In this document: positions 8,349-44,310 of the stretch, piece by piece
How positions within the stretch are numbered: position 1 is the stretch's first letter
Layout: every line of letters starts with the position of its first letter
NCBI GenBank assembly: GCA_021234155.1
Contig: JAJEKV010000058.1
Location: forward strand, 5,528,600-5,592,599
Source: Isoetes taiwanensis
Taxonomy: Eukaryota; Streptophyta; Lycopodiopsida; Isoetales; Isoetaceae
Direction of reading: 5' to 3'
DNA: 64,000 bases
The notes under the pieces: generated by a model
Seen by the model: only the letters and a program-made list of their open reading frames with translations
Told to the model about the DNA's origin: nothing
The model's database searches: none
Position numbers and translations under genes: made by a program

Positions 8349-8352
8349 GTTT

Positions 8353-8376
8353 GGGTAAAAGAAAGCTAGGGTGTCT
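8353..8376 (+). repeat. left terminal inverted repeat (24 bp)
   Basis: Starts GGGTAAAAGAAAGCTAGG and ends GTGTCT. It is the exact reverse complement of 17438-17461. The preceding GTTT (8349-8352) is the left target-site duplication. Confidence 0.92.
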
Positions 8377-8394
8377 TACATTTGGCCAAATGTA
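8377..8394. promoter_or_regulatory. left subterminal palindrome of the transposon
   Basis: TACATTTGGCCAAATGTA is a perfect 18-bp palindrome abutting the left TIR. Its six-base arms TACATT/AATGTA are the same as those of the right-end palindrome. A transposase-binding role is inferred from the symmetric position. Confidence 0.7.
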
Positions 8395-8688
8395 GAGTAA
8401 GAGATGTATCACATTTCAAATACATAACCGTTTTTTCAGTATGTACATAATAGCTATATTATGGAATCTTTTTTTTCGGAACTACTTGCCACGTCAATTA
8501 AAACGCAATCATGAAGCAGATTTCAATTCCCGGGCTTCTAACCACTCCAAGAAACGCCTGAACGTTAGGAGAATTTCCCACTTTCGGCTAAAACTTCGCC
8601 CAGCTCGAGATTTCCCTCCTTCTTGCCGTAATTCCTCCGCCTAACCCTAAACCACGCAAGAACAATGATGAACAACGAAGGAACGTAA

Positions 8689-11600
8689 ATGGCGCAAGAA
8701 GATTGCAATATCGGGAATGTGACAAAGAAAATGAAGCGTAAGATTGATGAAATTTGTAAATTTATATATGATCGGGTTCAAGATTTACGCCCCAGGTGCA
8801 AAGGAGAGCTTTTAGCGCTGAAAACCGGGATGAAAGGTCGTACTTCTTTTTGAACTCGCCATTGGAAATCCAAATAGCAAGCAATTCGAAGGATACTATG
8901 CTAAAAAATATCCGCGGAAGGTCTGCGGGGAAGTGAAACAAGCAAATAGCAATGATAAATTAGCGACTAAGCATTCCCCGTTATCAATGATTGTTGGTGA
9001 GAATGGAAAACTCGTGCAAAAGGAGTAGCCTCCAGAATTCTTCAAGTGCAAGCAAGAAACCTCACAAAAGCTGCAATTAGAAGAAAGCGGATGTCATTAT
9101 CAGGTGCTAATATGTGGGCACTGGCAGGAAGGCAACCCAGGGCAGACATGCTTCCGGAATCAACCAAACAGTTGGTAAATGAGTTTTGGTTAACCCACAC
9201 AAAAACTTCTCCAAAGTACAGGGATGTCAGGAAGAAAAGGACACTTCCAATCCAGTTTTTGGACATGCCCCAGGTCAGTTTTAAGTCTTTTAATCCTCTT
9301 TTTTGCAAGCTTGATAGAAGCTAGCTTCTGTGCATCCTGGATAAGTTTAGTAATCCTATTTGCATTCCATGTAAGGGATGTATCTGATATACATTGAAGT
9401 ACATCCAACTACCGTAATTATATTTTTACACTTGGAGGTATTAAATGAGCTATGTTTAACAGGAAACGTACTAGGATGTACTTCCAATTACATCCAATGT
9501 GGCATAAGGCAGAAAATGTGTTGAAAGTCAGGCTGTGTTATTATAGTCTTGATTTTTGTAGTTTCCAAGTACATTACATTACATTTTAAGCTTTCCTGAT
9601 CTCAAGATAGTTTTTAAAGATAGGGTGATACATAAAAGTATTTAAATGTACTTCCGTCCATAACAAAAGTATGAAATACATACATCTATAATACAGTGAC
9701 ACTGTCTGTGACCTGGTTACATATTGAGTTTTTTATGTACATCTGGGAACTCTTTGGAGTACATTCTTTATACATTTATACATATCATGTACATGGTATG
9801 TACGATGTTGTGGTATAGTAGTTGAATGTATATCAAATCATGATCTGAGTGCCATAGAACTAATGGAATGTCTGCAACATCTTTGAATTCGTAAGTAGTT
9901 CTAATTTATATCTTACTTATACATGTCGCTTTTTTCCTTGCAGAGTGAATTGTATGAGATGTTCAAAGATGAACATCCTGAAGTGCAGATTAGCATCAGA
10001 AAGTTCGAGCTGCTTAAGCCTACGTGTGTGAGAAGGTTGAAAGAGAGGAACACATGCTGCTGCGTGAAGCATGAACAAGCTGATCTATACAGAAAAGCTT
10101 TTACCGTCCTGAGGAGCAAATTTCATGCCAATTGTACATGTTCTTGTGGTGTTTGTGCAGCAGATGAGAACAATGGCGCCTCGCTAAGCTCCTTCTAAAA
10201 CATTTCAAAATGTTGGTGCTATGTGGAGAGCTACGGCCCTGTGACAAGGAAGGCTAAGAGTGGCATAGTTTGGATCAGGTCAAGGGAGAGTGCCGGGTAA
10301 TCGAAAATATTCAAATCTGTCCTAAGGAGAAAAGAGTCGCAGAATGAGAACATTGAATGGCAAGTTTACAAGCACGTGAACTAACCTTCCAAAGTCGGCA
10401 CTTCAAGGAGGTTGAAGCTTGTTACCGAAAAGCGGGACTCGGTGCACATTGCTTGACAAGATGTTTCAAAGACCTTACAAAGTTCACTAGTACAACTTTT
10501 CAAAGAAGTTGGCGAGAGCAAACAATTCAGAAATCGATTGCAAAATTTGAGGGATGATTCTCGCTTTTGTCAAAGAATGGACTTTGCAGAGAACTACACT
10601 TTGCGACCATTCGGAGGAGGTTCAAATCCGAGAGCATTGGAACAATGACCGATAACTATTCTCGTGCATATAACCATGATGAAAGTCAATGGCGAAGCTG
10701 AAAAAAACCGTTCATTTGTATGTTTCGATGTTATGAAGCATGATGCTTTCTTTGTTCAGCCGCACTCAAGAAGCACCATATTTGGATGATGCAAAAGGTT
10801 TTGGCCACATCAAATACCATGTCATGTGGTCTGATGGGTGTCTTTGCTTTCGGTTTAAGTGTTCTCGAGCCTTTTATTTGAATGTGGCCCAATATTATAA
10901 CAGGTATAAAATTAGGATGCAGTGGAATTATTTTGGCTCAGGCCATGGAAAAGGAGAACATGATGGGCAGGCTGCTTTGGAGAAAAGGTTCCTAGCAGAC
11001 GAGCAAAGGAAAGAGAATGGTGTTCCGATTTTGGGTGCCAACTCTGCTTGCACTTTGCTGAGACAAAAGAAGTGCAAAATGGACAGAGTCATATGGGAGT
11101 TGATGGCAGAAGACATTAACAGGGACCCTCGTTCAGATTGTGAGACATTGCCTGGTACTCTAGCTATACATTTTGTGTCTGCTATTAATCCAGCTGACCC
11201 AACACTTGTCATGTATAGATCCCTGTCATGTTTTTGCAATGGTTGCTTGAATTTCAGATGGGGAGAATGTGAGAATCTCGAGCATTGTGGTGCGTGGAAG
11301 CTGCATAAACTGGAGCCTAGTTCGGCCCAGGTCGACGAACAAGAAGAGCTAGTTGGTTTTTATGCAGCTGATGAGCAAGAACTGTCCGATGTACTCCAAA
11401 TTGGAGACATATTTGCATCTTTTGCTGCTCCAGGGAATCATGAAAATGTTCCATACGCCGCCCTCCTTTTGCGTGAAGGAGATGCATATTCTTCAGGAAG
11501 ATGTGATTGACGACTATGGAAATAGAATGCTTGCTGGTGACAGGGTTATAGCTGGTCATTACTATCAACTGCTACAAGGCACAAAGCACAAGTACAAGTT

Positions 11601-11768
11601 GTTGGATGACAAAATAGTATTAGTACCAGCTGAATCTGTAATTGGAGCAAAGTTCACGATGCAGCAGGTCAAGCATAAGTTGAAGGGGGCACGTACAGCA
11701 TATATGATCACACGAGAGGTGCATGACATGCTTATATCAAGCCTACCTGAGATTGTTGAGTGCACATG
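8689..11768 (+). pseudogene. DDE-type transposase of the 9.1-kb transposon, frameshifted
   Basis: The first segment starts MAQEDCNIGN at 8689 and shifts frame near 8853. A second exon (about 9040-9270) ends at CCCAG|GTCAG. A 670-bp TACAT-rich intron follows to the acceptor TTGCAG at 9943. The next exon (9944-10197) is cysteine-rich (NTCCCVKHEQAD...CTCSCGVC), possibly a zinc site. Then come MDFAENYT (about 10575, likely first catalytic Asp), FVCFDVMKHDAFF, SDGC (about 10830, likely second Asp) and NYFGSGHGKGEHDG (about 10930-10970), the diagnostic motifs of this transposase type. The longest open part is 10740-11510. A one-base shift near 11490 moves the C-terminal domain (QEDVIDDYGNRMLAGDRV...) into the frame ending at 11768. 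At least four frame breaks make it non-functional as it stands. It would cut and rejoin the element ends in the nucleus. Confidence 0.7.
9340..9943 (+). other. transposase intron rich in TACAT/ATGTA
   Basis: This intron is crowded with GTACAT, ATGTAC and TACATT words, matching the arms of the subterminal palindromes. The 13-mer TACATTGAAGTAC at 9390-9402 recurs at 15490-15502 in the accessory-gene intron. This may reflect internal protein-binding sites or simple low-complexity expansion. Confidence 0.5.
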
Positions 11769-11813
11769 ACTAAGTTCTGTACAAAGGAACTTTCATATTT
11801 GCCATCATCTTCT

Positions 11814-12363
11814 GTTATGTTGAGAAAACTAGTCGATTGCTGTAAGTTTTTTTGTTATTTACTTATTTTTTAATCTGAAGTGCATTTTGATACTTCAATT
11901 TCAGTATCACAGAATATCTTCTGTGATCAAGCAAAATGTATATCAGAAAGTACAAAATGTTTATCAATTATTGCATGAAGAAGTTAAACTAGTCTGTGTT
12001 ATGTTGAGAAAACTAGTCGATTGCTGCAAGTTTTTTCTTATTTACTTCTTTTTTAATCTGAAGTGCATTTTGATACTTCAATTTCAATATCACAGAATAT
12101 CTTCTGTGACCAAGCAAAATGTATATCAGAAAGTACTTAATGTTTATCAATTGTTGCATGAAGAAGTTAAACTAGTCTGTGTTATGTTGAGAAAACTAGT
12201 CGATTCTTCGCAAGTTTTTCTTATTTACTTATTTTTTAATCTGAAGTGCATTTTGATACTTAAATGTCAGTATCACACAATATCTTCTGTTTCCAAGCAC
12301 AATGTATATCAGAAAGTACAAAATGTTCATCAATTGTTGCATGAAGAAGTTAAACTAGTCTGT
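11814..12363 (+). repeat. three tandem copies of a 183/184-bp unit
   Basis: Units start at 11814, 11998 and 12181 with GTTATGTTGAGAAAACTAGT. Each contains an intron-end-like stretch (TTTTGATACTTCAATTTCAG) followed by TATCACAGAAT. The third unit ends at about 12363. A frame stays open through 11887-12381 because one period is 183 nt. The array sits between the 3' end of the transposase and the 3' end of the opposing accessory gene. No protein family was recognised in it. Confidence 0.8.
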
Positions 12364-12606
12364 GAACTTGTTCTGTTATAATGGATATCAATAGCTTTTC
12401 TTTTGATTCATGAAACAAAGCAGAAAGTGGAACATGTATGGAGACAAAAACTCTTGTATTACATATCACAAGATATACACAACCTGGTCATATCGGATAT
12501 GATGCCAATATATACAAGTCGTTGTTCATGTTTTATATTAACATTAATTTACAATCAAAATCTGGTCACAAACCGATGTGAAGCCAAGACATACTATTTC
12601 ATTGTT

Positions 12607-13295
12607 TCAATATGTTACTTTCTTGCAGCTTGTCCATAGCCTGGACATGCCATCTCTGTCCTTGTAGCCCTCTGAAAGCATTTGCCTCCAAACAGCTGTT
12701 GTTAGTACATCGGATGGATTGCGTAAAGGATTCTGCTTCACATCTTCATTTGTGTCCGGTGCTATCAACAAACCCTCTAGCCATGGTTTCGAAGTGTCAA
12801 GAGACCGTGTGTCTTCAACATCACTTTCCCCGCCATGAAGGTGGGCATATGCAATTTTCGTTGGGATTGAAGAGCATCTTGTACTCAGAGTCGTCTACTA
12901 TTAGTGTGTTGCCGTCATTCCTGTCTGGATACTTCTCGTATATAAACTCAATTGGCTTCAGATACAAAGGTTTGTCTTCACTTGCTGCAATCCGGAAAGG
13001 CAACTCCAAACAGTGGCTTCCATCAAAGGTGAACCTTAAGTCCCTTATCTGCGTCATTGTGAGTATTTTATCCACTACTCTTGATAGGTTCCATGGAGCT
13101 ATTGATGACCATATTCCTACTTCAAAGTGTTCAAATACAAATTCCGTGAATTGCCTAGGTGGGGCCTTAAAAACAACACTTTCTTGCCTATTATGTCATA
13201 ATTTCCAACTAGCTGATCATCTGATACCAAAGTCCTATGTATTTGTTTTGCCAAAACATTATTGATATCAAATACTATCAACCTTTTCGGTACAC
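12607..13295 (-). pseudogene. FCP1/NIF-type HAD phosphatase domain carried by the transposon
   Basis: Starting after an acceptor (ATATCAG|GTGTACC, exon from 13295), the translation shows HAD motif I VPKRLIVFDINNVLA (nucleophile Asp; the +2 position is Asn, as in plant DLNG-type members). Motif II follows as VGIWSSIAPWN, then the motif III lysine in DKPLYLKPI and motif IV as TLIVDDSEYKMLFNP. The C-terminal tail (WLEGLLIAPDTNEDVKQNPL) resembles plant FCP1-homology proteins. Two one-base shifts, near 13150 and 12830, interrupt the frame, and the last frame stops at 12607. Known relatives dephosphorylate phosphoproteins such as the RNA polymerase II CTD; the substrate here is unknown. All four catalytic motifs are present. 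It lies in frame with the protease domain through a 147-nt intron. Confidence 0.72.
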
Positions 13296-13442
13296 CTGAT
13301 ATGAAAGAACATGCAATTTATCAATAAAGTATGGTGGATTTGAATAAAAAGAGATTTTATTCATTAAAAATCAATGAAAAAATGTGTATTTTATAATCAA
13401 ATAGTGTTTAGCATTGACAATAGGGATAGGTCAATTTCTCAC

Positions 13443-14600
13443 CACATTTATTAGTACCGTGTGGTCTAATAGTTTGGGTCGCGATGTGAATGTGGTCTAA
13501 CTCCTCGAAGTAGTGCTCGGGTGAGAACATCATGACGATCCTCTCAGATACTTTGGCAAGAACCAGCTTCGGGTAATCTGCAAATGTGACAACAATACTT
13601 ACATAATAAGTATTAAAAACCATTTGTTTGCATGACAAAAGAAGTGAGACACTCACATTGGTAGTTTTACCACACACGATTGTGTCTACAAACTTCTGCA
13701 TATAAGCTGCAACATATAGGCCACATGAATCCCCATCTTTCTGCTGTGGACACTTATGAATCTTCACAACTGGTGAAGGATTTTGTCCATGCTTCAAAAA
13801 AGTGGGACACTCGACACAACCGCGTGCCATAGTGAGTATGTGGAGCCTGCAAAAGACCAGATCTATTTTGTAGCAAATGAATGAAAAAAGCTGCTAACAT
13901 GGTATCCAATCTACTCAATATTAATAAAAGGAGATGTGAAATACAAAATACCTCTTAAGTGCAAGCATGTCAACGCCAATGTCCCGGCAGAATTGAAGAT
14001 CCGAATGTTGATGGTGTTCTTACTCTTAGTAAGTGCCATGTTGAAGATGGCCAAAGTGTGATGTTCAAGAACTCTACATAGCATTGGAATCATGATCCAT
14101 CCGCGACTTCAGCCAATTTATCCCCTCAGAAGAGCTACCTTTACAATATCTCTTCCACGCTTTCGGAGGCTGCCATAGATTTATCTTTTTCGCTTGCCTT
14201 GGCCCATGCCGCAGAAATTCCATGAAGCTGTCCGTTGGGAAGAACCGGACGTCGACCTTCTTATCATCATCCGGAACACGAGAGCTGCGGTACCTATAAC
14301 AAGTTGAAAAGGATAAAATTACTAACTTCACTTACACATACAAATGAACAAGTTCAAAGTCCAGTACCTGGCATACATATCCACATGCCGGTTGGAAAAT
14401 TTTCCCACATCCATGTCCAGACATCTTGTTCAAATAAATAACACTCCATTTCGTGCAAAGATCCGGGAAAATCCTTGCCTTCTTGAGCTTCATCATTCGG
14501 TTCGCACCAAGGCATCGTATGATGGCGTATTGATTCTGAATGCGGGTTCAATGACCAGTACATTTACACAAATCATCTACATTCGTCTACTACTATTTAT
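13443..14600 (-). pseudogene. Ulp1/SENP-type cysteine protease domain (C48) carried by the transposon
   Basis: The signature end of the domain is clear in the 13830-13443 exon: KCPQQKDGDSCGLYVAAYM holds the oxyanion Gln and catalytic Cys. Upstream, exon 14093-13960 has LEHHTLAIFNM (candidate catalytic His, HT in place of the usual HW) and RIFNSAG, with Asn where Asp is usual. Exon 14290-14074 and the piece at 14563-14354 give the N-terminal part (CEPNDEAQEGKDFPGSLHEM). An intron at 13670-13578 has GT-AG ends and removes 93 nt in frame. A frameshift separates the 14.07-kb exon from the His exon. Such proteases remove SUMO or related modifiers. The minus frame otherwise stops at 13408 if the 13442 donor is not used. 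Confidence 0.72.
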
Positions 14601-14639
14601 AGTATTTTAAAGTTTTTAACTTGGATACTAGATGTAAAA

Positions 14640-15395
14640 AAAAATGTAAGACATGTAGATCAAGTTACCAGAGAGATCATTCTTACGCTTTCTCGATATC
14701 GTTTTCTGAGTCAAGATCCATTTCCTTCCCTGCCTTTTTGGTTTCCTCACTCAGATTCTTATTAGGTCCAGAATCCTCGTCTTCAACCTCTCCTGATTTC
14801 TCATTGGCATGAAATTGGCGTCCTTTGCTATGTCGAAGCAATATTTGACACAAACTTAAAAGTATCCCCGCTCTACATCTTGATGCTGGAAGATTCCTCT
14901 TCATTAGGACCTGTAAAAGATAGGATGTCATGGATTTCTCACCTTTGTATTAATTGAAATAAAATGTTTTCTTACTGTTTTCTACCGCTTTAATTGTCTT
15001 CTTCGTGGCTTTTTAGCGTGGAGTTCTTCTTTGGAGTCACATTTTCTGCTGCTGCCTTTACTTTTGAAGATGTGGCCTTAGCCTGCTCCCTCAATCTCTC
15101 AAGTTCCTCGTCATAATCTGGAATGTCACCATGCAGACCTGAAGTGCCAGCCTCCTCAACCTGTATCACCGCAGGAATAGTGATTTTGCTTTTTCCTTCA
15201 ATCTTTGCTTTTTTCCCTCGGCTACATCTTGCACCTCAATTTTCTTTGGAACCTCCAAACTGTGGAAAACCGAACCAAGAATATGAAATTGCTTCCTCCT
15301 CGACACAATGCAAATTGAATTTGAAAACAAGCGCGACCTTGACCCGTGGTGTAATTTCGCCAAGTAGTAGTTTTTGGCACTTTGAAGCTCTGAAA
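14640..15395 (-). pseudogene. linker region of the accessory gene, low complexity and charged
   Basis: Two exon-like pieces lie between the RING and protease parts. About 15395-15000 (acceptor TTTTCAG) reads ELQSAKNYYLAKLHHG, then, after a shift, DIPDYDEELERLREQAKA and a lysine-rich tail. About 14931-14690 reads GEVEDEDSGPNKNLSEETKK and ends at a GCG|GTAAGA-like donor. This acidic/basic composition suggests a disordered linker, possibly with nuclear localisation signals. No domain was recognised. Confidence 0.45.
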
Positions 15396-15399
15396 ATAA

Positions 15400-15924
15400 A
15401 TCACATAACAGTCAGATATCAGTCTCAAACTAATCAGTCTCTAACTGTTCTGTACATATCAATAGCTGTACATATTACTAGAACTGATCTACATTGAAGT
15501 ACTTTGAGTACATACACATGTAAACAGCTATTTATCTAGATGGAATGTACATGTAATGTACATGAATGTGCTCCAATGCATGCACATGTACACATCAGAC
15601 ATTACATAAAATACCTCTAAATGTTCTGCCACAAAACTCAGTACACAACTCCTAATTTTATGTATTTAAGTTCTACATTTAGGACCCTACACTGTGAATG
15701 TACAACATGTATGTAAGAAACACATATATGTATGACATGCAAGCCAAGGAACTATAAGTATAAAATAACCAGTACACTCCTACATGCTGTAGCAAAACCT
15801 TAAGTGCAGCAATCTACATGTAAATGGATTCTACATGTAAATGGATTCTACATGTAAATGGATTCTACATTGCAGTAATTCTGGGTGCAGCAAATTGAAC
15901 ATAAATCATGAAATACTGCTTACC
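15400..15924 (-). other. accessory-gene intron rich in TACAT/ATGTA
   Basis: About 525 bp between the RING exon donor (GTAAGC) and the TTTTCAG acceptor. It contains many TACATGTA and ACATGTA words and a 20-bp unit beginning CTACATGTAAATGGATT tandemly repeated near 15818-15868. It shares TACATTGAAGTAC with the transposase intron. Confidence 0.5.
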
Positions 15925-17130
15925 TCCAGTGTACACACCCAAGGTCTTTGAAATGTTATCGTCCCATTTGCATGCTCTTGGGCAGGATAGTCCAGCAGAA
16001 ATAGAATATGAGAAACAGAAGATATGAAATGAATGCTCGCATGGAGCAACTAGGATAGGTTCATTATTAGCAAAGCCATTACTGCAAAACACACATCCAT
16101 GCACAGATATGAATTTTTCTTCAGCTGGAGAGATCACTAAGCTTGTTTTGGGCTGAAGGAGAATTGCTGCAGAATGCATCATGTACTTATGCATATCATC
16201 AAGCCGTCTCTGCGGCCTCAAATCGAACTTTGTGAGCCTCCTCAAGTTCTGCAATCCTCTTTTCACATAACTCCTTCTCCCGAATGGCTTTCTCCAATGG
16301 CTCCTGAATTCTCTTCAGCATTTCTTCCTTTCTGGTTCTATCCCTCATCAAAAGGTCAACCTCCTGCTGCACAGTCTTGATGTCTCTCTTATTCTGCTTA
16401 GCATCGTCGAGAACACTATTGATGTCTTCTTGTATCTGTGCTAGGTCCTCTTCATGTGCATCCTTTCTTCCTGAAATCTTATTTATATTGTCACGTAATT
16501 CTGTCTGCTGAATTTTCAGTTCTTCAACCTTGGATGTCTTTGCTAATTAACTCTCCATGACACTTGCTTTGCCTTGAGTTTACGCAAATTCAAGCTCTTC
16601 CTTAGGGTAAAATCCTTTGCTGAAATTTAGGAACCTTGGATGTGGATTTAGAGGTCGCAATTTCTTTCGTAATAGCAGATTCTTTTGCTCCTCCCTTTGC
16701 CAAATCTTTGGCCAAAACTTTAAAAAGTATCCCAATCTACTTTTTTTACTGTCAATTGAAGGGCAAATGCACGAGCAAAGTACTCGTGTACATGGCGATT
16801 TGTGACCTCCCGCTTACCAAAAACAATTTCATAATGTTTGTAGAAGTTCTCGCCCACTCTCGCTTCACGCTAGATTCTTTGAACCCCCGTGATGTCTTTG
16901 GGCCCCCTTGCGCCGTCCATTATCTGTTGTAAATCTGGAAAAATTTCATCCGCATTTACACATCTTACATGCTTTGCTTCCACAACAATGGGTTCTTCAC
17001 AAATAAGTCTTTTTTTTGGCCCTGGTTCCTCGAAGTTTGAACCTTCCTCTTGTTTTTTCGGCTTTCTTGCTAGAATCGGCTATTTTCAAATTTTTGTTTA
17101 ATGGGTGACTTCCGGGAGGCAAAGGCGTCC
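15925..17130 (-). pseudogene. N-terminal coiled coil and RING-like zinc finger of the accessory gene
   Basis: The first Met candidate lies at about 17130 (MDAFASRKSP), and several shifts and a stop follow, so the 5' part is decayed. From about 16545 to 16215 the frame gives about 110 residues of heptad-rich coiled coil (KTVQQEVDLLMRDRTRKEEM ... EKELCEKRIAELEEAHKV). After a frameshift the 15925-16266 segment has a RING-H2-like knuckle: CVFC, then APCEHSFHIFC, then CPRAC. The order C-x2-C...C-x-H-x2-H-x2-C...C-x3-C is one residue longer than canonical in the last pair. The exon ends at GGAG|GTAAGC. RING fingers commonly act in ubiquitin or SUMO ligation; the role here is inferred only from the motif. 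Confidence 0.55.
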
Positions 17131-17405
17131 ATTGCTTGGATTTTGGGCAAGGATTTGAGGAAGAAGAATAGTTACAATTTAATTACTTCGTTGATCACTT
17201 TAAAACACGTAAAATGGAACGGCGGCAAATTTTTTTCCTAAACAGGAAACATTTCGCAATCTCCCTCCGAAAAATTGCAATGATTGTCCGTTCTGGTTGC
17301 CACTGCCACTCATAATTTTGAATTGCTGACGTGGCTACTCCTAATCATTACATATCCCAACTAACTAAAATTCAAAAAAATAACAAAAACGGTGCCTACA
17401 TGCCC

Positions 17406-17423
17406 TACATTATACATAATGTA
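17406..17423. promoter_or_regulatory. right subterminal palindrome of the transposon
   Basis: TACATTATACATAATGTA has eight-base inverted arms around an AC centre and lies 14 bp inside the right TIR. It sits within a longer GCCCT...AGGGC hairpin at 17402-17428. Arms TACATT/AATGTA are shared with 8377-8394. Confidence 0.7.
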
Positions 17424-17437
17424 AGGGCATTTTTTTT

Positions 17438-17461
17438 AGACACCCTAGCTTTCTTTTACCC
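17438..17461 (-). repeat. right terminal inverted repeat (24 bp)
   Basis: Perfect inverted match to 8353-8376. It is followed by GTTT at 17462-17465, matching the left target duplication. Confidence 0.92.
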
Positions 17462-17465
17462 GTTT

Positions 17466-26513: not shown

Positions 26514-27620
26514 TCAGCAGGCAATAGCACATGGCTTCACACCTTGCCATACTGCACTTGTTCTTTGGATCTTAGAAGAAACCATAGAAGCATCATTTTC
26601 GAAGGAGGGGCTTTTGCGTTTTGAACTTTGATGAGCCTGCATCAGAGCCTTCATTACCTTCTGCCTCTCACAAGCAACTGCACTAGCATAGTATTTAACA
26701 ATCCAGGGGTGTGATAAAATTTGCTCCAAAGAGATTCGTTCCTCTGGATCAGGCCACAACATAGCCAATACAAGGCTCTGCGCATCCTCTGACACCAACC
26801 CAACTGGCCATTTCAAATGCGAAGCGGCCAAATCCTCTCCATATAGCAACCTTTCTTCAATCTCCGATGTCTTCAAACCTGAGAAGTGATGCAACCCAGT
26901 AAGGGTTTTATACAGTATCAAACCTAAACCCCATATGTCAATCTCCTTGGAGTAATTTCTCTGCACAAGCTTAGGTGCGTAATATCTTGGAGTCCCGTGT
27001 TTGCGTTTTAAATTCGGAGTCCCAAATCCTGGAAACCGAGCCGACATGCCGAAATCTGAAACCCTAATATCAAAGGGTTTTGAAGCTGAAGGAACTAAGA
27101 TGTTGGCGGGTTTTAGATCTCGATGAATAATATTATTATTGTGAAGGTATTGGATAGCTAGTGCAAGATTTCGAATAAGGAGAGCTGATTCCATTTCGGA
27201 GAGCCGACCACGTTTTTTGATCAATTCAGTCAAGTTGCATTCGCACAGTTCCATGATGAAGTGCCAGAATCCGTGGTCTTGGATTACCTCGTGAAGATGG
27301 ACTACGCCAGGGGCACGGGATAATTTCTTCATGATTTCCATCTCTTCAACGAGGTCTGTGTATTCTACAGAGGCTGTGGACATTATTTTGCAAGCGAATT
27401 CCTTTTTGCTTCCCCCTTTACTCCGGCAAAGAAAAACCGTAGCATAGCCACCATTGCCGATCTTCTTGAGCAGATCATAGCGCTCCAACAGATTGGGATA
27501 TGAAGCCAAATAAGTGCAATTCAGAAGCTGTTCTTCCGTCTCCTCCATCTCTGTATCCATTCTGTCCTGTAATGCTAACACAATGGATTGTTGTGTAGTA
27601 TATAGAAGCGCACTTCGCAT
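26514..27620 (-). CDS. intronless Ser/Thr protein kinase (CAMK/CDPK-like catalytic domain)
   Basis: An open frame of 368 residues; the likelier start is Met21 (27560, MDTEMEETEE), since the first 20 residues look like 5' UTR. The kinase domain spans residues about 48-316: glycine loop IGNGGYATV (54-62), ATP lysine in FACKIM (Lys78), catalytic loop IHRDLKPAN (165-173), DFG (189-191) and GTPRYY (209-214). The usual APE is APK here (215-217), a change at the glutamate that normally pairs with a conserved Arg; the copy at 63.5-64 kb keeps APE. Subdomain IX is DIWGLG and is intact. A C-terminal tail of about 50 residues is basic then hydrophobic, with no EF-hands, so it is not a CDPK proper. It transfers phosphate to Ser/Thr of unknown targets if the APK change is tolerated. 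Confidence 0.85.
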   Translation of the reverse strand: MRSALLYTTQQSIVLALQDRMDTEMEETEEQLLNCTYLASYPNLLERYDLLKKIGNGGYATVFLCRSKGGSKKEFACKIMSTASVEYTDLVEEMEIMKKLSRAPGVVHLHEVIQDHGFWHFIMELCECNLTELIKKRGRLSEMESALLIRNLALAIQYLHNNNIIHRDLKPANILVPSASKPFDIRVSDFGMSARFPGFGTPNLKRKHGTPRYYAPKLVQRNYSKEIDIWGLGLILYKTLTGLHHFSGLKTSEIEERLLYGEDLAASHLKWPVGLVSEDAQSLVLAMLWPDPEERISLEQILSHPWIVKYYASAVACERQKVMKALMQAHQSSKRKSPSFENDASMVSSKIQRTSAVWQGVKPCAIAC

Positions 27621-28779
27621 TTTCTCGAAATATCCTTTCCTGGCCCGAGCCTTTTTTAGGGACCTTTTTACTAAACATATCCCTTTCCCTTATTTAGGGA
27701 CCAATTCTACCCAATTGCAGCTTCCGCATCAGCGCAGTTCCAGGCCCAGCACTAGGATTTTCAGGCATATCACAGCATGTTAGCACTAGAATTTCTTAGC
27801 AACGGCTGACCCGATTTCATGACCTGCAACAGCTGATCTGCAAAGCTTCGGCCTCCTTTGCAAAACTTCGACCTCCTCTGCAAGAGCTCAGGTCTCTGCA
27901 ATTCTAGGGCAGCCTTTCAGGTAGAAGCAAGCGTCTGAAGCTGGTTTCAGGAGTCTTATTGTGTTTCATTACTTCTACTACACCTATTAGAATTTCGTTA
28001 TGCCATGTTAACAACTATGAATTTAGCATTAGTATTGATGGTCAATGGGAAGATGATTGGTGTTACAGCTATGTGTCTTCTCATATTGGGAATGAGTTGC
28101 AGAGCCCTAGCCATTTTAAATTTGCATTTTTGGACTTCTGAATGCATTTATTTTCCCTAGATAATAAAGGGAGGCTAAGTGGAATGTCAAATTTCATGCA
28201 GCCAAAACTTGAATTACTTGGTCAGTTTCTAGAGCTGTGTTTGAGCTTGGAATAAGCATGTGTAGTTTGATTTCACTCTATTGTAGTTCACGCATGGAGG
28301 TAAGACTGCTTTTTACTTCCTACGTGCAATGTTTAATGCAATGTTTACATTGTGTTTGAGCTTGCAATAAGCATGCTGGATAATCCAGAGCAAAAAATCC
28401 TGTAACACCAGGTATAGGTAAGTTCTTCATTTAAGTTCTTTTGCAGGAAAGGCTATGTATAATAGCTCTAAATGTTTTATTTTTTGCACCTCATTTCTCA
28501 TTTCCTTTCTATTTGCAGCACATAGATTCTTGAACTTTGGCAGGAGGCCAGACCAATGCACAGAATACAAGGCCAATGCCAAGGTCATAAAATAATCTTC
28601 TTGCTGAAGGCTAGCAGAAAGCTGCTTTTCGATGAATAAAAGACACTGCTGATATAGGTGTTGCAATGATCGTCTTGTAAATGCATATAATTTTGTCTAC
28701 TCTTTAGATAGCAATCCACTTCCCTTATCCATCTGTTACTCATTCTGCAGGCTTAAGCTAATTAGGTCAGCCACTTAAC
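27621..28779. other. kinase upstream region and noncoding spacer
   Basis: Contains the presumed promoter of the minus-strand kinase gene. A CTGCAAAGCTTCGGCCTCC-type unit is repeated two to three times at 27838-27895. No gene was recognised. Confidence 0.35.
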
Positions 28780-31935: not shown

Positions 31936-31949
31936 AATCATAATGAAAA

Positions 31950-32866
31950 TCTAGAAATGAAGACAACGTAAAAAAAATCTATGGTTACCTCTGGAACCAT
32001 AGCCCCTGAATCCAAGTTGTTTCTGCAAGACATCTGGTGGTGCCTCAATGGAAGCACTATCTGCACAAGAACTTGCTCCACAACGAGGAGTCTTTCCTCG
32101 CTGGTAGCATTTGGCAACAAGGCCCACTGGACCACCAAGGCTGCAGCCAGAGCTACTGCCCCTGTTACAACAACTGCAATAAGAGCTCCACACTTCTTTT
32201 TATGGTCATGAGCATTCATTGATCGAGGTTCATCATTCAAGGAGACTGCTTGACAAGATGATTGAGGCTGCTGGACCTGCAAACTTGTTGTAAAGCAGTT
32301 TCTGTCAAATATAATTGATTTTTTTGTGCTATTATGGGTGAACTCCTGCGGAAGTTTTCCAGAAAAATAGTTGGAGGAGATATCCAGCACAGAGAGATTT
32401 TTTCCAAGAGAAAGATTTGCAGAGAGGTACCATTTAAATGATTATTATTCAAAGAGGAGGACCTCCAAACTTGGTATGGCAAAGATGAATGCTGGTGGTG
32501 TTCCGCATATCAAGTTTGAAGACAGCTTCAAAACTTGCAAGTTTGTAAGGTTCCAATATGATTCTGGAATTGATGATGCTAACTGGTTCTTGCTGATTGT
32601 CACTATAGTAACCTCATTAGGAAGCTCTGGAAAATATGGCCCAAAAGCATTCTCATCCAAATTCACTACCTTGAGGGTCTTTATACCACTAAGAGATGGG
32701 ATGACTCCTGAGAGCTGGTTTTGAGAGAGGCTAAGGGTCTCCAGATACCTGACATTTGACAGAGAAGGGGGTAACGTTCCATTGAACTAGTTTTGTTCTA
32801 GACGAAGTGTTTTCAGGGAGCCGAAAAGCAAAATCTGGCTTGGAATTTGTCCCGAGAGACGATTAT
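31950..32866 (-). pseudogene. LRR receptor-like kinase ectodomain, left copy, kinase lost
   Basis: Leucine-rich repeats (LPPSLSNVRYLETLSLSQNQ, NEVTIVTISKNQLASSIPES, LTNLQVLKLSSNLICGTPPA) are followed by IIFDRNCFTTSLQVQQPQSS with CQAVSL, the cysteine pair typical of the At3g03770-type receptor family. A membrane segment (ALIAVVVTGAVALAAALVV) follows at about 32140-32200. The frame shifts at 32420-32460 and no kinase domain follows toward 31.9 kb. It is nearly identical to the right copy at 43.15-44.3 kb but keeps about 46 bp deleted there (around 32712-32757). In intact relatives the protein sits in the plasma membrane and its kinase is often inactive. The gag-only retrotransposon begins at its upstream edge. 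Confidence 0.75.
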
Positions 32867-35294: not shown

Positions 35295-35309
35295 TAGCTT
35301 GCAGACAAC

Positions 35310-36782
35310 ATGTCTAGCAGATTCGGAGCAGGTTTATTGAATGCCATAGAGGTATTCAAAGGGGATTCTGGCTTCCAAGTGTGGAAGGAAAAAGTGAAGC
35401 ATGTGCTTCAAGTAGAAGATCTATGGGATCTTATTGTATCTCCAGAAGGAGAAACCAGTGTGCTCAGCTCCAGGAGGAGATTGACATCTGAGACAAATGA
35501 GGGAAGTTCATCTTCACCTGAAGAACAAGGGGAAGTGGCAGCAGCAGAAGTTAGTGTAACTTCTGGACTAGGAGGAGTGGCTGACAGTGCAAAATTTCGT
35601 GAAGCACAAGGCATCATAATGAGTAAAGTTAGTTCAGGGATTGTGTTGAAATTAAGGGGAATGACACCAAAACAGATGTGGAATTATATGATGAAAACTT
35701 ATGAGGCTAAAACTTCTTCACAGATTGATGTACTGGAAAATGAACTGAGGAGGCTAAAGTTTCATGATAAGGACAATGTGAATGAGTTTTTCCAAACCTT
35801 TGATAACATAATTGCAGATTTGGAGGGAGCTGGAATAGTCTATTCTCAACAACAGCAAGTGCTGGCTATTTCTAGAGCAGTCACAAGCTTGGGAAATATA
35901 GCAACATTCATTAGGACTATTGCCACCACTAGAATAGAAGCTGAGAGAATGCTCAAGACTGAGCTTGAGCAAAACAGGGTGCTTGAGGAAGAAGACACAT
36001 CACAGATCCTAATGGCAAAGGGGAAAGGAAAAACTGAAAATCGCCAAGGGGGAAAAGTGGGACCATGTTTTGGCTGCAATGAGTATGGTCACATCAAAGT
36101 TAACTGCCCAAAGCTTTCAAAAGACATTCACTGCTACAATTGTGGGGGCAGAGGCCATTATGCCACGAGTTGTCCATCTCCAAAGGAAAATTTCAGAAAC
36201 AAGAATAAAGGAGGAAGGGGAAATCAGAATTTCAGAGGCAGGGGAAGAGGAAGAGGTAGAAGATCAGGCCCTGAAGCTAACTTGGCAGAAGAAATTCCTC
36301 TTGAAGAGGAAACTGGTGATGAAGAAGAAGAGGTAAGTAATTCAGCTTATTTGTCATGTGAAGATAGATCTAATGGTGATGATATTCTCATTTTAGATAG
36401 TGGAGCTGAGAAAACCATTGCCTGCTCAACAAAAATCTTGAAAGAGTGTAAAGGAAATGGAGGTGGGCACATTCAAGTTGGTAATGGCAATTTACAAAGG
36501 GTTGAAGATGTGGGAGTGCTTGAGTTATTTGACCTAAAGGGAAGAAGAGTGAATTTACAAAATGTACTTTGTGTTCCTAGTTTAGTGAGGAATTTGATTT
36601 CCATTGCTCAACTAGTTGACATGGGATTCAAAGTTGTTTTTGAGCAATTACATTGTAAAATCTTTGAAGGCAATGAATTGAAGTTTTTGGGAAGACGAGT
36701 TGGAAATCTGTTTGGTATAAATCTTAATTGTTTTGGCAGTGTGAACTTGACAACGAAACCAAACATTGAATTATGGCATTAG
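35310..36782 (+). CDS. copia Gag and aspartic protease ORF
   Basis: 490 residues. The N-terminal half is copia gag (UBN2-like: VWKEKVKHVL, MWNYMMKTYEAKTSSQID, LKFHDKDNVNEFFQTFDNII). Two CCHC zinc knuckles follow (CFGCNEYGHIKVNCPK about residue 252, CYNCGGRGHYATSCPS about 273), then an RG-rich basic stretch. The protease active site is ILDSGAEKT (about 362-370). The frame ends at ELWH-stop, inside the gag-pre-integrase motif WHxRLGH, with RLGH present just beyond the TAG. Gag would package element RNA in cytoplasmic particles. The stop cuts pol off this frame. Confidence 0.88.
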   Translation: MSSRFGAGLLNAIEVFKGDSGFQVWKEKVKHVLQVEDLWDLIVSPEGETSVLSSRRRLTSETNEGSSSSPEEQGEVAAAEVSVTSGLGGVADSAKFREAQGIIMSKVSSGIVLKLRGMTPKQMWNYMMKTYEAKTSSQIDVLENELRRLKFHDKDNVNEFFQTFDNIIADLEGAGIVYSQQQQVLAISRAVTSLGNIATFIRTIATTRIEAERMLKTELEQNRVLEEEDTSQILMAKGKGKTENRQGGKVGPCFGCNEYGHIKVNCPKLSKDIHCYNCGGRGHYATSCPSPKENFRNKNKGGRGNQNFRGRGRGRGRRSGPEANLAEEIPLEEETGDEEEEVSNSAYLSCEDRSNGDDILILDSGAEKTIACSTKILKECKGNGGGHIQVGNGNLQRVEDVGVLELFDLKGRRVNLQNVLCVPSLVRNLISIAQLVDMGFKVVFEQLHCKIFEGNELKFLGRRVGNLFGINLNCFGSVNLTTKPNIELWH

Positions 36783-37686
36783 AGGCTTGGACACACAAAT
36801 ATTAAAAATATAGAAATGATGATAAAACAAGGCTGGTTGGACTCAGCATATTTCTTATTAGCCAGAATGACTTTAGCTAAACTTGCTCGATATTAATCCC
36901 AAAACTTTCTGTGGTTTAGCTAAACTGTACACATTTTTTCTCTCATATTTTCTAGCGTTTAGCTAAACTAACTCAAACATCATCCTAAAACTTTCTATGG
37001 TGTTGCCAACAGAAAATATTAAACCAAATTACTATACCTTTTTTTTTCAATATATTCCACTTATTTTAGTCATTTTCTTTGTGAAAACATTCTAAAACAA
37101 TGCTAATTAGCAAAGTCTAGGACTCAAATTAATTCATAATGCTAGAGAAACTACTAATCATATATTTCATATAAACTAAAATGATGTTAGCTAAACTAGC
37201 CCGAAATTCATTCTAAAAGTTTCTACGGTTTAGCTAAACAATACAAAATTTCACTCTCTTACTTTCTGGCGTTTTGCTAAAGAGCTCCAGGACTGGTGCA
37301 GTCCCGAAAAACGTTAAGCTAAAATTATAATTTTTTTCCCAATTTTTTCCATTTACTTTAGCCAATTTTCTTTAAAAATGTGCTAAAAAATCGCCAAATA
37401 GCTAAGTTTAGCCCTTAAATTATTCCATGCACAGCAGGTTGCCATTTACAAAGGCAAAAAGGAAAGCAAAGGAAATTCTAGAACTGATTCATACGGATAT
37501 TTGTGGACCCCTGAATGTCACAGGAATATCAGGCAAACGATATTTTATAACATTTGTTGATGATTAGTTTTTTGTCTCAAAACAAAGGATCTTGCATTTG
37601 AAGCCTTTAAAAGGTTTGCTGCTGAAGAAGAGTGCTCAACTGGAAGAAAGATCAAGTATGTTCGATCTGATAGAGGAGGTGAGTAC
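36783..37686 (+). pseudogene. copia integrase N-terminal region, interrupted
   Basis: RLGHTN and IEMMIKQG follow the stop, then about 570 bp of noncoding sequence (about 36855-37425). Coding then resumes at SRLPFTKAKRKAKEI, ELIHTDICGPL (first integrase Asp) and FVDD-stop (37565). After a frame change, KIKYVRSDRGGEY carries the second Asp. The zinc-binding CxxC of the integrase HHCC domain is lost. Confidence 0.75.
36855..37425. repeat. 570-bp noncoding insertion with TTTAGCTAAAC repeats
   Basis: Two direct copies of a unit of about 100 bp, starting at 36871 and 37186 (TTAGCTAAAC ... TTTCT.CGGTTTAGCTAAAC ... CTTTCTGGCGTTT), lie about 315 bp apart. The right end has GCTAAGTTTAGCCC, partly inverted to the left. 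It is probably a small nonautonomous element inserted in the copia integrase; ends not fixed. Confidence 0.45.
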
Positions 37687-40104
37687 ATGTCTTCTAAATT
37701 TGTAAGTTTTTGCATAAATAAAGGAATCAAGAGGCAATATACCTGTAGTTATACCCCACAACAAAATGGAGTAGCTGAAAGGATGAACAAAACCATTTTA
37801 AATGCAACTAGATCCATGCTTAAGCATGCTGGCCTTCCTAATTTTCTTTGGGAAGAGGCTGTAAAGACAGCTGTGGAAATGCATAATGTTTTGCCCTCAA
37901 GGGCTATAAATGGGAACACCCCAGAAAAAATGTGGTCAGGAAAGGAACCAAGCTATGAGAAATATAAAGCATATGGCTGCCTGGGTTATACTCATGTCCC
38001 TGAAGAACTAAGGCAAAAATTGGATAACAGATCGACCATAAGCTATTTAGTTGGATATGATGAAAATACTAAGGGGTTCAGAATGTATAATCCAGCAAAG
38101 AGGAATATTCTGATGAGCAGGGATGTCACTTTTGTGGAAAACCAGCTATACAAACCTATGGTCAATTGGAAAACAGTCAATGAGAAAGATGAAACCAAAG
38201 GAGTTGAAGAAACAATAGAGAAGGTGACAGAAAAAGGAATATCAGAAAATAAGTTAATGGTTGACTTGGATGAAGACAAAGAAAAGGGGGAAAATACTAT
38301 AGAGCAGAATATTGAGAATGGATCAGAAAAAAGAGCCATTAGAGAAGAAATAGGGGAACAAGTTACAACTGAAAATAAAGGTAAGAAAAGGAGAAGTGAA
38401 GCAGAAAGGCTTAAAGAAGAGTTAAAGTTTGATGTAGATACATATGGGAGAAAAGAAGATGGCAAAAGTGGGAGAACAGATAGATCACTTGAAGATACAT
38501 CAGAAGCATTGATTATACTAGAAACTGGAGTGCCAGAGGATTTTGAGGATGCAATAAATAGGCATGACAGTGAAAATTGGAAAAGGGCCATGATGGAAGA
38601 AATGGAATCTTTTGAAAGAACCTCAACCTATGAGATTACAACTTTGCCAAAGGGGAAACAAGCAATTGGAAATAAATGGATCTTCAAATTAAAACAAAAT
38701 GCAGATGGTTCGGCCAAGTACAAGGCAAGATTAGTGGCTCAAGGATATTCTCAACAAAAGGGGATTGACTTTGAAGAGACATATTCGCCTGTAGTAAAGA
38801 TGACTAGTATCAGAATGATTATAGCTATGGCAAATGCATTAAACATGGAATTACATCACATGGACGTATGCACAGCATTTTTGAATGCTGAGTTGGAAGA
38901 GGAAGTATACATGAGGCAAGCACAAGGATTTGAAAATGGTAAGGAAAATGTATGGAGATTGAAGAGAGCAGTCTATAGCTTAAAACAGGCCCCTAGACAA
39001 TGGTATAAATGTATTGACAGTTATCTGAAAGAGCAGGGACTTAGAAAGCTTGAAAATGATGGGAATGTATATATTTTAAAAGAGGGAAAAGGTGTGTGCA
39101 TTGTAGCCATTTATGTTGATGATTGTGTGCTAGCAGCAAGCAACATGGAGATTCTTAATCAATGCAAGGAAATATTGAAAGAAAAATATAAAATGACGGA
39201 TTTGGGGGAGTTGTCTAAGTTTTTGGGAATTGAAATTAAAAGAGACAGGGCCAATAAAAGAATATTCATGTGTCAAGAAAAGTACATTGATGCAGTGTTG
39301 GAAAGATTTAATATGCAAAGTTGCAATCCAGTGAAAATACCATTGACTGCAGGGGAAAAGTTGTCCAAACATATGTCACCAAAGACTGAAAGAGAAAGAG
39401 AAGAAATGAGAAAAATACCTTACAGGCAACTAGTTGGAAGTTTACTACATGTTGCAAATCACACTCGGCCTGACATAAGCTACATTGTAAATGTGTTAAG
39501 TAGGTATAACAGTGATCCAGGTAAACATCATTGGTTGGCAGCAAAGAAAGTCTTGAGATTCCTAAAGGGAACAAAGACAAGAGGGATTGGATATTATGGA
39601 GATGATTTGGAATTAAAGGCATATGCAGATGCTGATTGGTGTGGTGATGTAGATGAAAGGAAGTCAACCTCAGGCTATGTACTAATATTTGGTGGTGGTC
39701 CTGTATGCTGGAGAACAAAGAAACAGTCAGCCATAGCACTATCCACAGCAGAATCTGAATATGCTGCCACAACACTTGCAAGCAAAGAAATAATTTGGAG
39801 CAGAAGATTTCTGAGTGAATTAGGGATCATACAAACCAAGGGAACAACATTATTTTGTGATAGCCAAAGTTGTATAGCAATGTGCAAAAATCCAGTTATG
39901 CATGAAAGAACAAAACATATAGAGATGGAGATGCATTTTATCAGAGAAATGGTGAATCAGGGTATTGTTGAACTTAAATACATTTGTTCTGAGAAACAAT
40001 TGGCAGACATATTCACAAAGGGTTTAAGTTGTAGCAGATTTTCAAAGCTGGCAGAAGAAATGAATTGTAAGGATTATGATCTGAAAGGGGAATGTGGGAA
40101 ATAA
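37687..40104 (+). CDS. copia pol ORF: integrase C-terminal part, reverse transcriptase, RNase H
   Basis: 805 residues with no internal stop; the ATG is fortuitous because the natural frame starts upstream. The integrase catalytic Glu is in PQQNGVAERMNKT (about residue 25-36). A lysine/glutamate-rich linker spans about 165-280. RT begins near EAINRHDSENWKRAM, with KARLVAQGYSQ, the palm YVDDCVLAAS (about 477-486) and a second conserved block LGIEIKRD. RNase H shows AYADADWCGD, STAESEYAA and a C-terminal HIEMEMHFIREMV. RT and RNase H motifs look intact. The protein acts in cytoplasmic particles to copy element RNA. Confidence 0.9.
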   Translation: MSSKFVSFCINKGIKRQYTCSYTPQQNGVAERMNKTILNATRSMLKHAGLPNFLWEEAVKTAVEMHNVLPSRAINGNTPEKMWSGKEPSYEKYKAYGCLGYTHVPEELRQKLDNRSTISYLVGYDENTKGFRMYNPAKRNILMSRDVTFVENQLYKPMVNWKTVNEKDETKGVEETIEKVTEKGISENKLMVDLDEDKEKGENTIEQNIENGSEKRAIREEIGEQVTTENKGKKRRSEAERLKEELKFDVDTYGRKEDGKSGRTDRSLEDTSEALIILETGVPEDFEDAINRHDSENWKRAMMEEMESFERTSTYEITTLPKGKQAIGNKWIFKLKQNADGSAKYKARLVAQGYSQQKGIDFEETYSPVVKMTSIRMIIAMANALNMELHHMDVCTAFLNAELEEEVYMRQAQGFENGKENVWRLKRAVYSLKQAPRQWYKCIDSYLKEQGLRKLENDGNVYILKEGKGVCIVAIYVDDCVLAASNMEILNQCKEILKEKYKMTDLGELSKFLGIEIKRDRANKRIFMCQEKYIDAVLERFNMQSCNPVKIPLTAGEKLSKHMSPKTEREREEMRKIPYRQLVGSLLHVANHTRPDISYIVNVLSRYNSDPGKHHWLAAKKVLRFLKGTKTRGIGYYGDDLELKAYADADWCGDVDERKSTSGYVLIFGGGPVCWRTKKQSAIALSTAESEYAATTLASKEIIWSRRFLSELGIIQTKGTTLFCDSQSCIAMCKNPVMHERTKHIEMEMHFIREMVNQGIVELKYICSEKQLADIFTKGLSCSRFSKLAEEMNCKDYDLKGECGK

Positions 40105-43149: not shown

Positions 43150-44310
43150 GATGCGACTTCTGGTGGTGCCTCAATGGAAGCACTATCTGCACAACAACTT
43201 GCGCCACAACGAGAAGTCTTTCCTTGCTAGTAGCATTTGGCAACAAGGCCCACTCACCAAGGCTGCTGCCAGAGCTACTGCCCCTATTACAACACCTGCA
43301 ATAAGAGCTCCACGCTTCTTTTTATGGTCATGAGCATTCATTGATCGAGGTTCATCCTTCAAGGAGACTGCTTGACAAGATGATTGAGGCTGCTGGACCT
43401 GCAAACTTGTTGTAAAGCAGTTTCTGTCAAATATAATTGATGGTTTTCTGCCATTATGGGTGAACTCCTGTGGAAGTTTTCCAGAAAAATAGTTGGAGGA
43501 GATATCCAGCACAGAGAGATTTTTTCCAAGAGAAAGATTTGCAGGGAGGGTACCATTTAAATGATTATTATTCAAGAGGAAGACCTCCAAACTTGGTATG
43601 GCAAAGATGAATGCTGGTGGTGTTCCGGATATCAAGTTTAAAGACAGCTTCAAAACTTGCAAGTTTGTAAGGTTCCGATATGATTCTGGAATTGATGTCG
43701 CGAACTGGTTCTTGCTGATTGTCATTATAGTAACCTCATTAGAAAGCTCTGGAAAATATGGCCCAAAAGCATTCTCATCCAAATTCATTACCTTGAGGGT
43801 CTTTATACCACTAAGAGATGGGATGACTCCTGAGAGCTAAAGGGGGTAATATTCCACTGAACTGATTATAGACGAAGTGTTTTCAGAGAGCCAAAAAGCG
43901 AAATCTAGCTTGGAATTTGTCCCCAGAGATGTTAGTTTGATAAAAACAATGTACTAAGGTTTGGAATGACATTGAGGAAATCTGGAAATGCTCCAGTGAG
44001 CATGTTATCATTTAAAGCAAGAGATTGCAAGCTACCTAAGGCAGAGTACCTGTCAGGGATATCACCAGAGAAGAGATTGTTGCTAGTATTAAGAACTTGA
44101 AGAGATCTGAGGTGGTCGAGATTGACAGATAGCACTCCCCATATCCCCAACGAGACCAAGCTCAAAATTGGAAACTTGAGCAAATTGTTTGCAAGGGCTG
44201 AAGAAGAAAAGCCATCTGAAAGAGTACATTTGCTTCAGTATAATTGGCACTAAACTTCTGCTCCACAGAGGCGTTGGCCTTGTCTTCAACAATCTGCAAG
44301 ACAATCAAGG
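43150..44310 (-). pseudogene. LRR receptor-like kinase ectodomain, right copy
   Basis: Segments 44300-43932 carry LRRs (LDHLRSLQVLNTSNNLFSGD, LGSLQSLALNDNMLTGAFPD). The main piece 43788-43183 continues with LQVLKLSLNLISGTPPAF, KNLSVLDISSNYFSGKLPQE, the NCF...SSC cysteine pair and a membrane helix (ALIAGVVIGAVALAAAL). A deletion near 43838 removes about 46 bp kept in the left copy, and a further shift comes just after the membrane helix. No kinase domain follows. Best match by memory: the At3g03770-type (probably inactive) receptor family. The two copies are tandem with the retrotransposon nest at their junction. Confidence 0.75.

Follow-up and report, generated by a model that had tools for sequence, protein, structure and literature searches.

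A high-copy DNA transposon, plausibly Sola-like, in the lycophyte Isoetes taiwanensis with a convergent accessory gene of RING-like, Ulp1-type and altered NIF domains

DNA transposons are usually thought to need a transposase alone. What is to be made of an element in Isoetes taiwanensis whose transposase gene faces a second gene with parts resembling a coiled coil, a RING-like finger, an Ulp1-type protease and a NIF phosphatase, and does that second gene belong to the element? The window analysed here is a stretch of 64,000 nucleotides (GenBank assembly GCA_021234155.1, contig JAJEKV010000058.1, positions 5,528,600 to 5,592,599 of the forward strand), and coordinates are given as window positions. 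Window 8353-17461 is a complete DNA transposon with terminal inverted repeats (TIRs). It is 9109 bp long with GGGTA termini; its two TIRs (8353-8376 and 17438-17461) are 24 nt each and 100% complementary, and a DDD-like transposase gene on the plus strand converges with an accessory gene on the minus strand. An initial annotation made from the sequence alone had described a complete DNA transposon at this place, which the perfect 24-bp TIRs, the GTTT on both sides and the two convergent genes bear out. The features of the element are as follows.

8349..8352, no strand: left target site duplication (TSD) GTTT, with identical flanks
8353..8376, plus strand: left 24-bp TIR, followed by an 18-nt palindrome at 8377-8394 (the palindrome by eye)
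8665..11769, plus strand: transposase gene, its start taken from the majority sequence of the copies; a relative in locus L064 at 37% identity
9274..9943, plus strand: transposase intron with 24 TACAT/ATGTA motifs; GT in 13/17 and AG in 12/17 copies
11848..12396, no strand: three 183-bp tandem repeats between the convergent genes
12607..17132, minus strand: accessory gene, eight exons by splice model, stop at 12607; phases agree across introns, and intron 14686-14536 is the least certain
12823..13295, minus strand: HAD/NIF phosphatase-like domain with motif I D13269-x-N13263; Pfam NIF and PDB matches
13458..14535, minus strand: Ulp1-type (C48) protease domain over four exons; His 14063, Asn 13994 (usual Asp place), Cys 13725
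15390..15923, minus strand: accessory intron 1 with 26 TACAT/ATGTA motifs
15970..16095, minus strand: RING-H2-like zinc finger with eight candidate ligands in the window copy, the last pair C-x3-C; below all Pfam cut-offs
16211..16546, minus strand: coiled-coil stretch, by generic helical-model matches alone
17438..17461, minus strand: right 24-bp TIR, with a hairpin-like stretch just inside (by eye)
17462..17465, no strand: right TSD GTTT, with identical flanks

In the host genome (1,658,258,908 bases in 1110 contigs), the TIR pattern with up to 3 mismatches was found at 292 forward and 260 reverse places, compared to 1 and 0 for a reversed-pattern control. This abundance is far beyond chance, and the element is high-copy, with hundreds of TIR ends in the genome. 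From the perfect matches listed, 17 TIR pairs were fetched; in 16 of them the ends are 8.7-10.0 kb apart, and in the other, L047, 5.4 kb. This set was chosen by size, and wider-spaced pairs (11-33 kb) were left out. Each of the 16 ~9-kb copies spans both genes and aligns over 98-100% of the window copy with 89-93% identity. Identical 4-bp flanks were seen in 14 of the 17 pairs (the exceptions are L033, L037 and L045), and the 15 TSDs known when the window is included comprise 14 distinct sequences, none of them CCGG or CCGT. The short copy, L047, is without 11907-15557, yet has a 4-bp TSD.

A sample independent of size was drawn from the first 30 perfect TIR places with any partner, 13 of which are ends of the fetched ~9-kb pairs. 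Element DNA lies inside the TIR at 29 of these 30 places (15 left ends and 14 right ends). At the remaining place, L014 (G000:C277:102558, plus strand), the TIR is perfect, but the DNA inward of it is unrelated and includes a long GATA microsatellite. The accessory gene, or at least its start, is present at all 14 right ends; at 12 of these it continues over the full 1.5 kb sampled, and 8 of the 14 are independent of the ~9-kb set. Internal windows expected to hold the Ulp1-NIF part were sought for 16 of the 17 TIRs outside ~9-kb pairs, one of them falling beyond a contig end; among the 15 read, seven hold the whole region, four hold part of it and four hold none. The initial annotation had named copies that share the TIRs and lack the minus-strand gene as grounds for calling that gene a local capture. 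This comparison did not refute its claim, because the sampled right ends and internal windows mostly hold the accessory gene, as do 16/16 of the ~9-kb copies. The four-part minus-strand gene belongs to the element.

The four parts differ in how well they match known families. For NIF, the Pfam score against a cut-off of 21.8 bits is 29.3 bits for the window open reading frame (ORF) alone and 66.1 bits (E 4e-18) for the unedited ORF of copy L037, and the nearest solved structures are UBLCP1 (E 7.3e-6) and a CTD small phosphatase-like protein (E 2.9e-5). For Peptidase_C48, the window ORF scores 19.5 bits, under the cut-off of 20.7, while the spliced, frame-joined read-through scores 24.6 bits, over it. 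For the finger, RING models reach at best 25.4 bits against a cut-off of 27 on the frame-joined read-through, and the nearest solved chain is the plant RING of AT5G66160 (E 1.2e-4). Basic and acidic linkers lie between the finger and the C48 domain. Of the four domains initially proposed for this gene, NIF stands over its Pfam cut-off and C48 does so on read-through, whereas RING is below its cut-off and the coiled coil is indicated by generic helical models alone.

Both enzyme-like domains are altered at expected catalytic positions. Among the 17 aligned copies (the window copy plus L031-L046), the Ulp1 triad residues are kept as His in 17, Asn in 16 and Cys in 17, and two Gln codons are intact in 13/17 and 7/17; set against the His-Asp-Cys plus Gln pattern of C48, the Asp position is Asn. 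Asn can stand for Asp in cysteine-protease triads, as in papain. In the NIF domain, motif I reads DxN in 17/17 copies where the aligned motif of 2hhl reads IDLDETL. In HAD enzymes the absent residue acts as the general acid/base, and loss of this +2 Asp normally cripples HAD phosphatases. The initial annotation had listed four HAD motifs; motifs II-IV are kept, but motif I (FDINNVLA) is without the second Asp of DxD, and the active phosphatase that the list implied is unsupported. An ordinary phosphatase was accordingly rejected as a description of the NIF part, on the grounds of the DxN.

Many donor and acceptor letters of the accessory gene are well kept across copies, and each poorly kept splice border sits on CAG or CG. 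For the last intron, the donor at 13457 (GGTACTA in 16/17) appears more likely than that at 13442 (GT in 2/17), both being in frame. In the splice model the NIF exon should be joined to the preceding exons, because the window copy is without an in-frame start codon ahead of motif I.

If the accessory gene is part of the element, is it an old part? A genome search for NIF domains gave 3261 first-look candidates, of which 150 were scored, with 151 matches. Of the 150 matches listed, 49 lie above 85 bits and 101 are scattered matches at 61-85 bits, 91 of these 101 without an internal stop; some of the mid-scoring matches may be further copies of the window family. Among the 150 scored, strong matches reach 195.8 bits and include 12 host-type genes on contig C1018 at 22.9-26.8 Mb. 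Two mid-scoring loci, L063 and L064, were taken by score and length class alone, and in each of them a transposase related to that of the window lies ~1-1.5 kb from the NIF gene, on the other strand and converging with it. These transposases are 37% (L064, E 5e-37) and 27% (L063, E 2e-14) identical to that of the window, the E values applying to these two loci alone. The NIF domains score 78.2 bits (L064) and 74.0 bits (L063) and are 26-30% identical to the window's. Their motif I is again DxN, reading LDLNGVLV in L064 and LDINGVLA in L063 compared to DINNV in the window, and all three families keep motif II IWS, a Lys and the (V/A)DDS of motif IV. Because both loci keep the convergent transposase and the DxN, the NIF gene would be a long-standing part of the lineage, and on these two loci the pairing of transposase and NIF seems ancient and not a matter of local capture. 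The NIF-domain set of this genome is very large, and the 101 scattered mid-scoring matches may be transposon genes.

Upstream of the NIF domain the relatives are less alike. L064 also encodes a coiled coil and a zinc finger in the corresponding position, the finger matching that of the window at E 0.004 in a four-sequence comparison; by itself it is weak (Prok-RING_1 15.7 of 29.1 bits; best PDB match E 0.069). No significant BLAST match came from the N-terminal parts of the window gene and the L064 gene. L064:1909-3039 (minus strand) is one open frame in which an aspartic-protease-like stretch (DGGSAVNL ... LVGRPFL) precedes the NIF domain; this stretch is again weak, with a Pfam score of 16.4 of 28.2 bits and no PDB match. 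Since L064 has this weak stretch and no Ulp1 match in the part fetched, the comparison suggests that the protease part of the accessory gene can differ between families, Ulp1 in one and aspartic-protease-like in another.

To which superfamily might the transposase belong? It has a candidate DDD triad at D10580 (MDFAENY), D10833 (MWSDG) and D10962 (GHGKGEHDG), conserved in 17/17, 16/17 and 17/17 copies; the three Asp align in L064, their catalytic role being judged by motif look alone, and Cys-rich stretches precede and trail the DDD region. No significant Pfam or PDB family match was found for the transposase, including its unedited 312-aa ORF and a 227-aa part; Pfam profiles gave no integrase-core match for the transposase pieces, and searches of viral contigs, phages and PDB returned nothing useful. 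An AlphaFold2 model of window:10737-11510 alone had a pLDDT of 30.5 and was useless. The motif pattern presumably resembles that of Sola proteins. Sola elements have been described with TIRs of 11-1124 bp and sizes mostly of 2-9 kb, some being larger, and the 4-bp TSD, 24-bp TIRs and 9109-bp length of the element agree with the features given in that description (PMC10741241). By TSD, TIR, size and the look of its motifs, Sola-like is a plausible and the best-fitting label, as set against the published description and not reference sequences. Sola reportedly seems uncommon in flowering plants (PMC10741241), and the plant examples in a review table are Physcomitrella and Capsicum (PMC9033089).

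The initial annotation had called the transposase a relic, which proved mostly wrong, the frameshifts falling at methylation-context sites where they look like nanopore basecall errors and substitutions elsewhere being low. Hypervariable columns of the 17-copy alignment touch 96/103 CAG, 120/133 CTG, 41/52 CCG, 32/42 CGG and 52/78 TCG sites of the window copy, compared to 19/226 CAT and 9/114 CTA sites (~8%). These CAG, CTG, CCG and CG variable sites are the plant CHG and CG methylation contexts. Counted as copy-by-column cells, the hypervariable spots and the columns next to them contain 3638 transitions, 2749 transversions and 3245 indels; outside them, substitutions relative to the majority range from 0.30% (window copy) to 1.93% per copy, and the copies look young. 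When variants containing CHG or CG were chosen blind to frame, the NIF exon became open from end to end (159 to 230 aa) and the coil-RING frame grew from 212 to 274. Long unedited ORFs are also present in single copies, namely 312 aa of transposase (L040), 276 aa of coil plus RING (L034) and 226 aa of NIF (L037). For the published assembly, Oxford Nanopore R9.4.1 reads were used, with polishing by racon and pilon (PMC8566536), and CHG methylation is described as important for transposon silencing (PMC8514461). Basecall error at 5-methylcytosine, uncorrected in near-identical repeats, is the likely cause of the frame breaks; it is favoured because deamination gives transitions only, whereas transversions and indels abound. 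In nanopore plant assemblies, cytosine methylation can make copies appear 'dead' as an artefact. The differences between copies also map CHG and CG sites, such that assembly noise in the young repeats of a nanopore genome reads out methylation contexts.

On these data the element is reasonably probable to be a young, probably autonomous, Sola-like two-gene DNA transposon that encodes a nuclear accessory factor, and its anatomy and the transposase-NIF partnership are jointly very likely to be as described. The mode of action proposed for the accessory protein is tentative. The second gene would make a nuclear protein that dimerises via its coiled coil; its NIF/HAD fold, being without the general acid/base Asp (DxN), would mainly serve to dock onto a phosphorylated partner, for instance the RNA polymerase II tail or a factor of chromatin or repair. 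The RING-like finger and, in the window family, the Cys-His-Asn Ulp1 domain would add or remove ubiquitin or SUMO on that partner or on the transposase, and as an outcome transposition might be supported or silencing relieved. A wider and somewhat more doubtful proposal is that there is a lineage of lycophyte Sola-like transposons whose second core gene is a 'marker-guided modifier', made up of a coiled coil, a RING-like finger, an exchangeable protease and an altered, phosphate-reading NIF domain, that edits ubiquitin or SUMO on phosphorylated host nuclear proteins and so steers transposition or anti-silencing. If this were true, the ~100 mid-scoring NIF matches would mostly be such genes. 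An accessory gene of protein-modification modules, with a phosphatase fold whose altered active site is kept across deep divergence, suggests that some plant transposons may edit host nuclear proteins themselves, and it gives testable proteins for the open question of why Ulp1-type proteases recur on transposons.

Several observations weigh against this reading. The window copy has frameshifts, and 2599 indel cells over all copies lie outside the hypervariable spots, some being longer insertions. Frame-blind choice of variants left transposase exon 2 almost unchanged (202 to 204 aa) and made accessory exon 2 worse (142 to 89). Some splice borders are weakly kept, namely the acceptor of intron 1 (3/17), the donor and acceptor of intron 3 (9/17 and 1/17) and the acceptor of intron 5 (6/17). 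RING, below its cut-off, has Cys at 16017 and 15984, both CTG sites, intact in just 5/17 and 4/17 copies, and the accessory gene is missing from 4 of the 15 internal windows. The partnership rests on two loci, known from stretches short of the element ends; no Ulp1 match was found in the L064 stretch fetched, and in L063 the transposase frames are broken and the sequence ahead of NIF is of low complexity, without a recognisable partner domain. In addition, within-family data show no significant purifying selection on either gene. When unique substitutions outside CHG and CG sites were counted against the element's own mutation spectrum, the accessory gene had 133 nonsynonymous (N) and 45 synonymous (S) events (ratio to expectation 0.91, p 0.33) with 9 stops, and the transposase had 81 N and 27 S (ratio 0.85, p 0.26) with 3 stops. 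The count for the NIF exons was 15 N against 1 S, while the ratios were 0.66 (p 0.13) for coil plus RING and 0.56 (p 0.06) for the C48 exons. Copy-weighted pN/pS values of 0.59 and 0.56 had been considered as purifying selection and were dropped, since unique events and the element's own mutation spectrum made them not significant. An absence of constraint within a family is as expected, because copies drift after insertion.

There are several alternative explanations to be weighed against that of a young element with a functional second gene. It is very improbable that the locus is a decayed relic of an old element, a description that was rejected. Decay would fit the frameshifts that both genes show in the window copy and an apparent identity of only 89-93% between copies, but the variability is concentrated at CAG, CTG, CCG and CG sites and touches only ~8% of CAT and CTA, the transversions and indels go beyond what deamination makes, and elsewhere the window copy departs from the majority by 0.30%. 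It is unlikely that the element belongs not to Sola but to a DDD/E superfamily, with 4-bp TSDs, that has yet to be described. In favour of this, the transposase core, even as the unedited 312-aa ORF or the 227-aa part, lacks a significant Pfam or PDB match; against it stand a motif pattern that presumably recalls Sola proteins and a 4-bp TSD, DDD-like motifs, TIRs and size that fall within the Sola description of PMC10741241.

The other alternatives concern the accessory gene. It could be a captured passenger, a host gene fusion that one element acquired and that spread along with it without any part in transposition, and several results are in keeping with this: selection inside the family is not significant, the host has its own NIF genes with far stronger matches (up to 195.8 bits, including the 12 on C1018), and the deletion derivative L047 has a 4-bp TSD and so was mobilised. 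However, deletion derivatives can be mobilised in trans, or the part may have been lost after insertion, and the same convergent arrangement with DxN in L063 and L064 at 26-37% identity needs either vertical retention or repeated similar captures; we consider the passenger explanation quite unlikely. It is similarly improbable, if marginally less so, that the gene encodes a set of active enzymes, with NIF dephosphorylating host proteins or the transposase and Ulp1 cleaving SUMO or ubiquitin from them. NIF retains its nucleophile Asp, the Ser of motif II, a Lys and the DD pair of motif IV, Ulp1 His and Cys are present in 17/17 copies, and an Asn in place of Asp has its precedent in papain. Nevertheless, the +2 Asp of HAD motif I, whose loss is normally crippling, is Asn in 17/17 copies and in both relatives, and the Asp position of Ulp1 is Asn in 16/17 copies.

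No described transposon, of Sola or related superfamilies, with a coiled coil-RING-Ulp1-NIF gene was found in the open-licence literature, and the known systems share only parts of this design. Sola resembles the element in 4-bp TSD, TIRs, size range and, by motif look, a DDD-type transposase, as described in PMC10741241. In Ginger1, as portrayed in PMC2836005, an Ulp1 protease is likewise tied to a transposon with 4-bp TSDs, but there Ulp1 is fused to a Gypsy-integrase-like transposase, the targets are CCGG or CCGT and the ends are TGTNR. In the element, by contrast, Ulp1 lies in a gene of its own that converges with the transposase, for which no integrase match was found; the targets are mixed and the ends GGGTA. 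A Ginger1 identity was therefore rejected on targets, ends and transposase. Mutator TSDs are 9-11 bp long, and we know of no NIF or RING partner of ULP1 in plant MULEs. Plant MULEs, as cited within PMC2836005, resemble the element in carrying an Ulp1 domain on a plant DNA transposon and differ from it in transposase and TSD length. KolobokP also has a second enzyme-like activity beside a DDD/E transposase, but in the account of PMC9587614 it belongs to an animal Kolobok lineage and has a His-Me endonuclease, with no protein-modifying domains. Finally, the SCP/FCP/UBLCP1 (NIF) phosphatases have the fold, by sequence match, and motifs II-IV in common with the NIF domain of the element; their motif I is DxD, whereas that of the element is DxN and sits in a transposon gene.

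Both genes also contain an intron dense in TACAT/ATGTA motifs. The transposase intron (9277-9941) has 24, compared to a single-base shuffle mean of 2.7 (maximum 8 of 500 shuffles), and accessory intron 1 (15391-15906) has 26, compared to a mean of 2.1 (maximum 9 of 500), approximately ten times the shuffle expectation. One array is ~0.9-1.6 kb in from the left end and the other ~1.6-2.1 kb in from the right; they may be putative protein-binding sites for one of the two element proteins.

Rfam and tRNA scans of the window were empty. Elsewhere in it, a Copia-type retrotransposon occupies 35298-40101 (plus strand); its gag/pol frames are long and open, in contrast to the noisy ones of the 9-kb element. 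On the minus strand there are near-duplicate protein kinase pieces at 26517-27689 and 63520-63999 (by eye, with a Pfam match for 26517-27689) and near-duplicate leucine-rich repeat (LRR)-like pieces at 31941-32786 and 43186-43836 (by eye, with a Pfam match for 43186-43836 and none for 31941-32441), as if stretches of the window had been duplicated.

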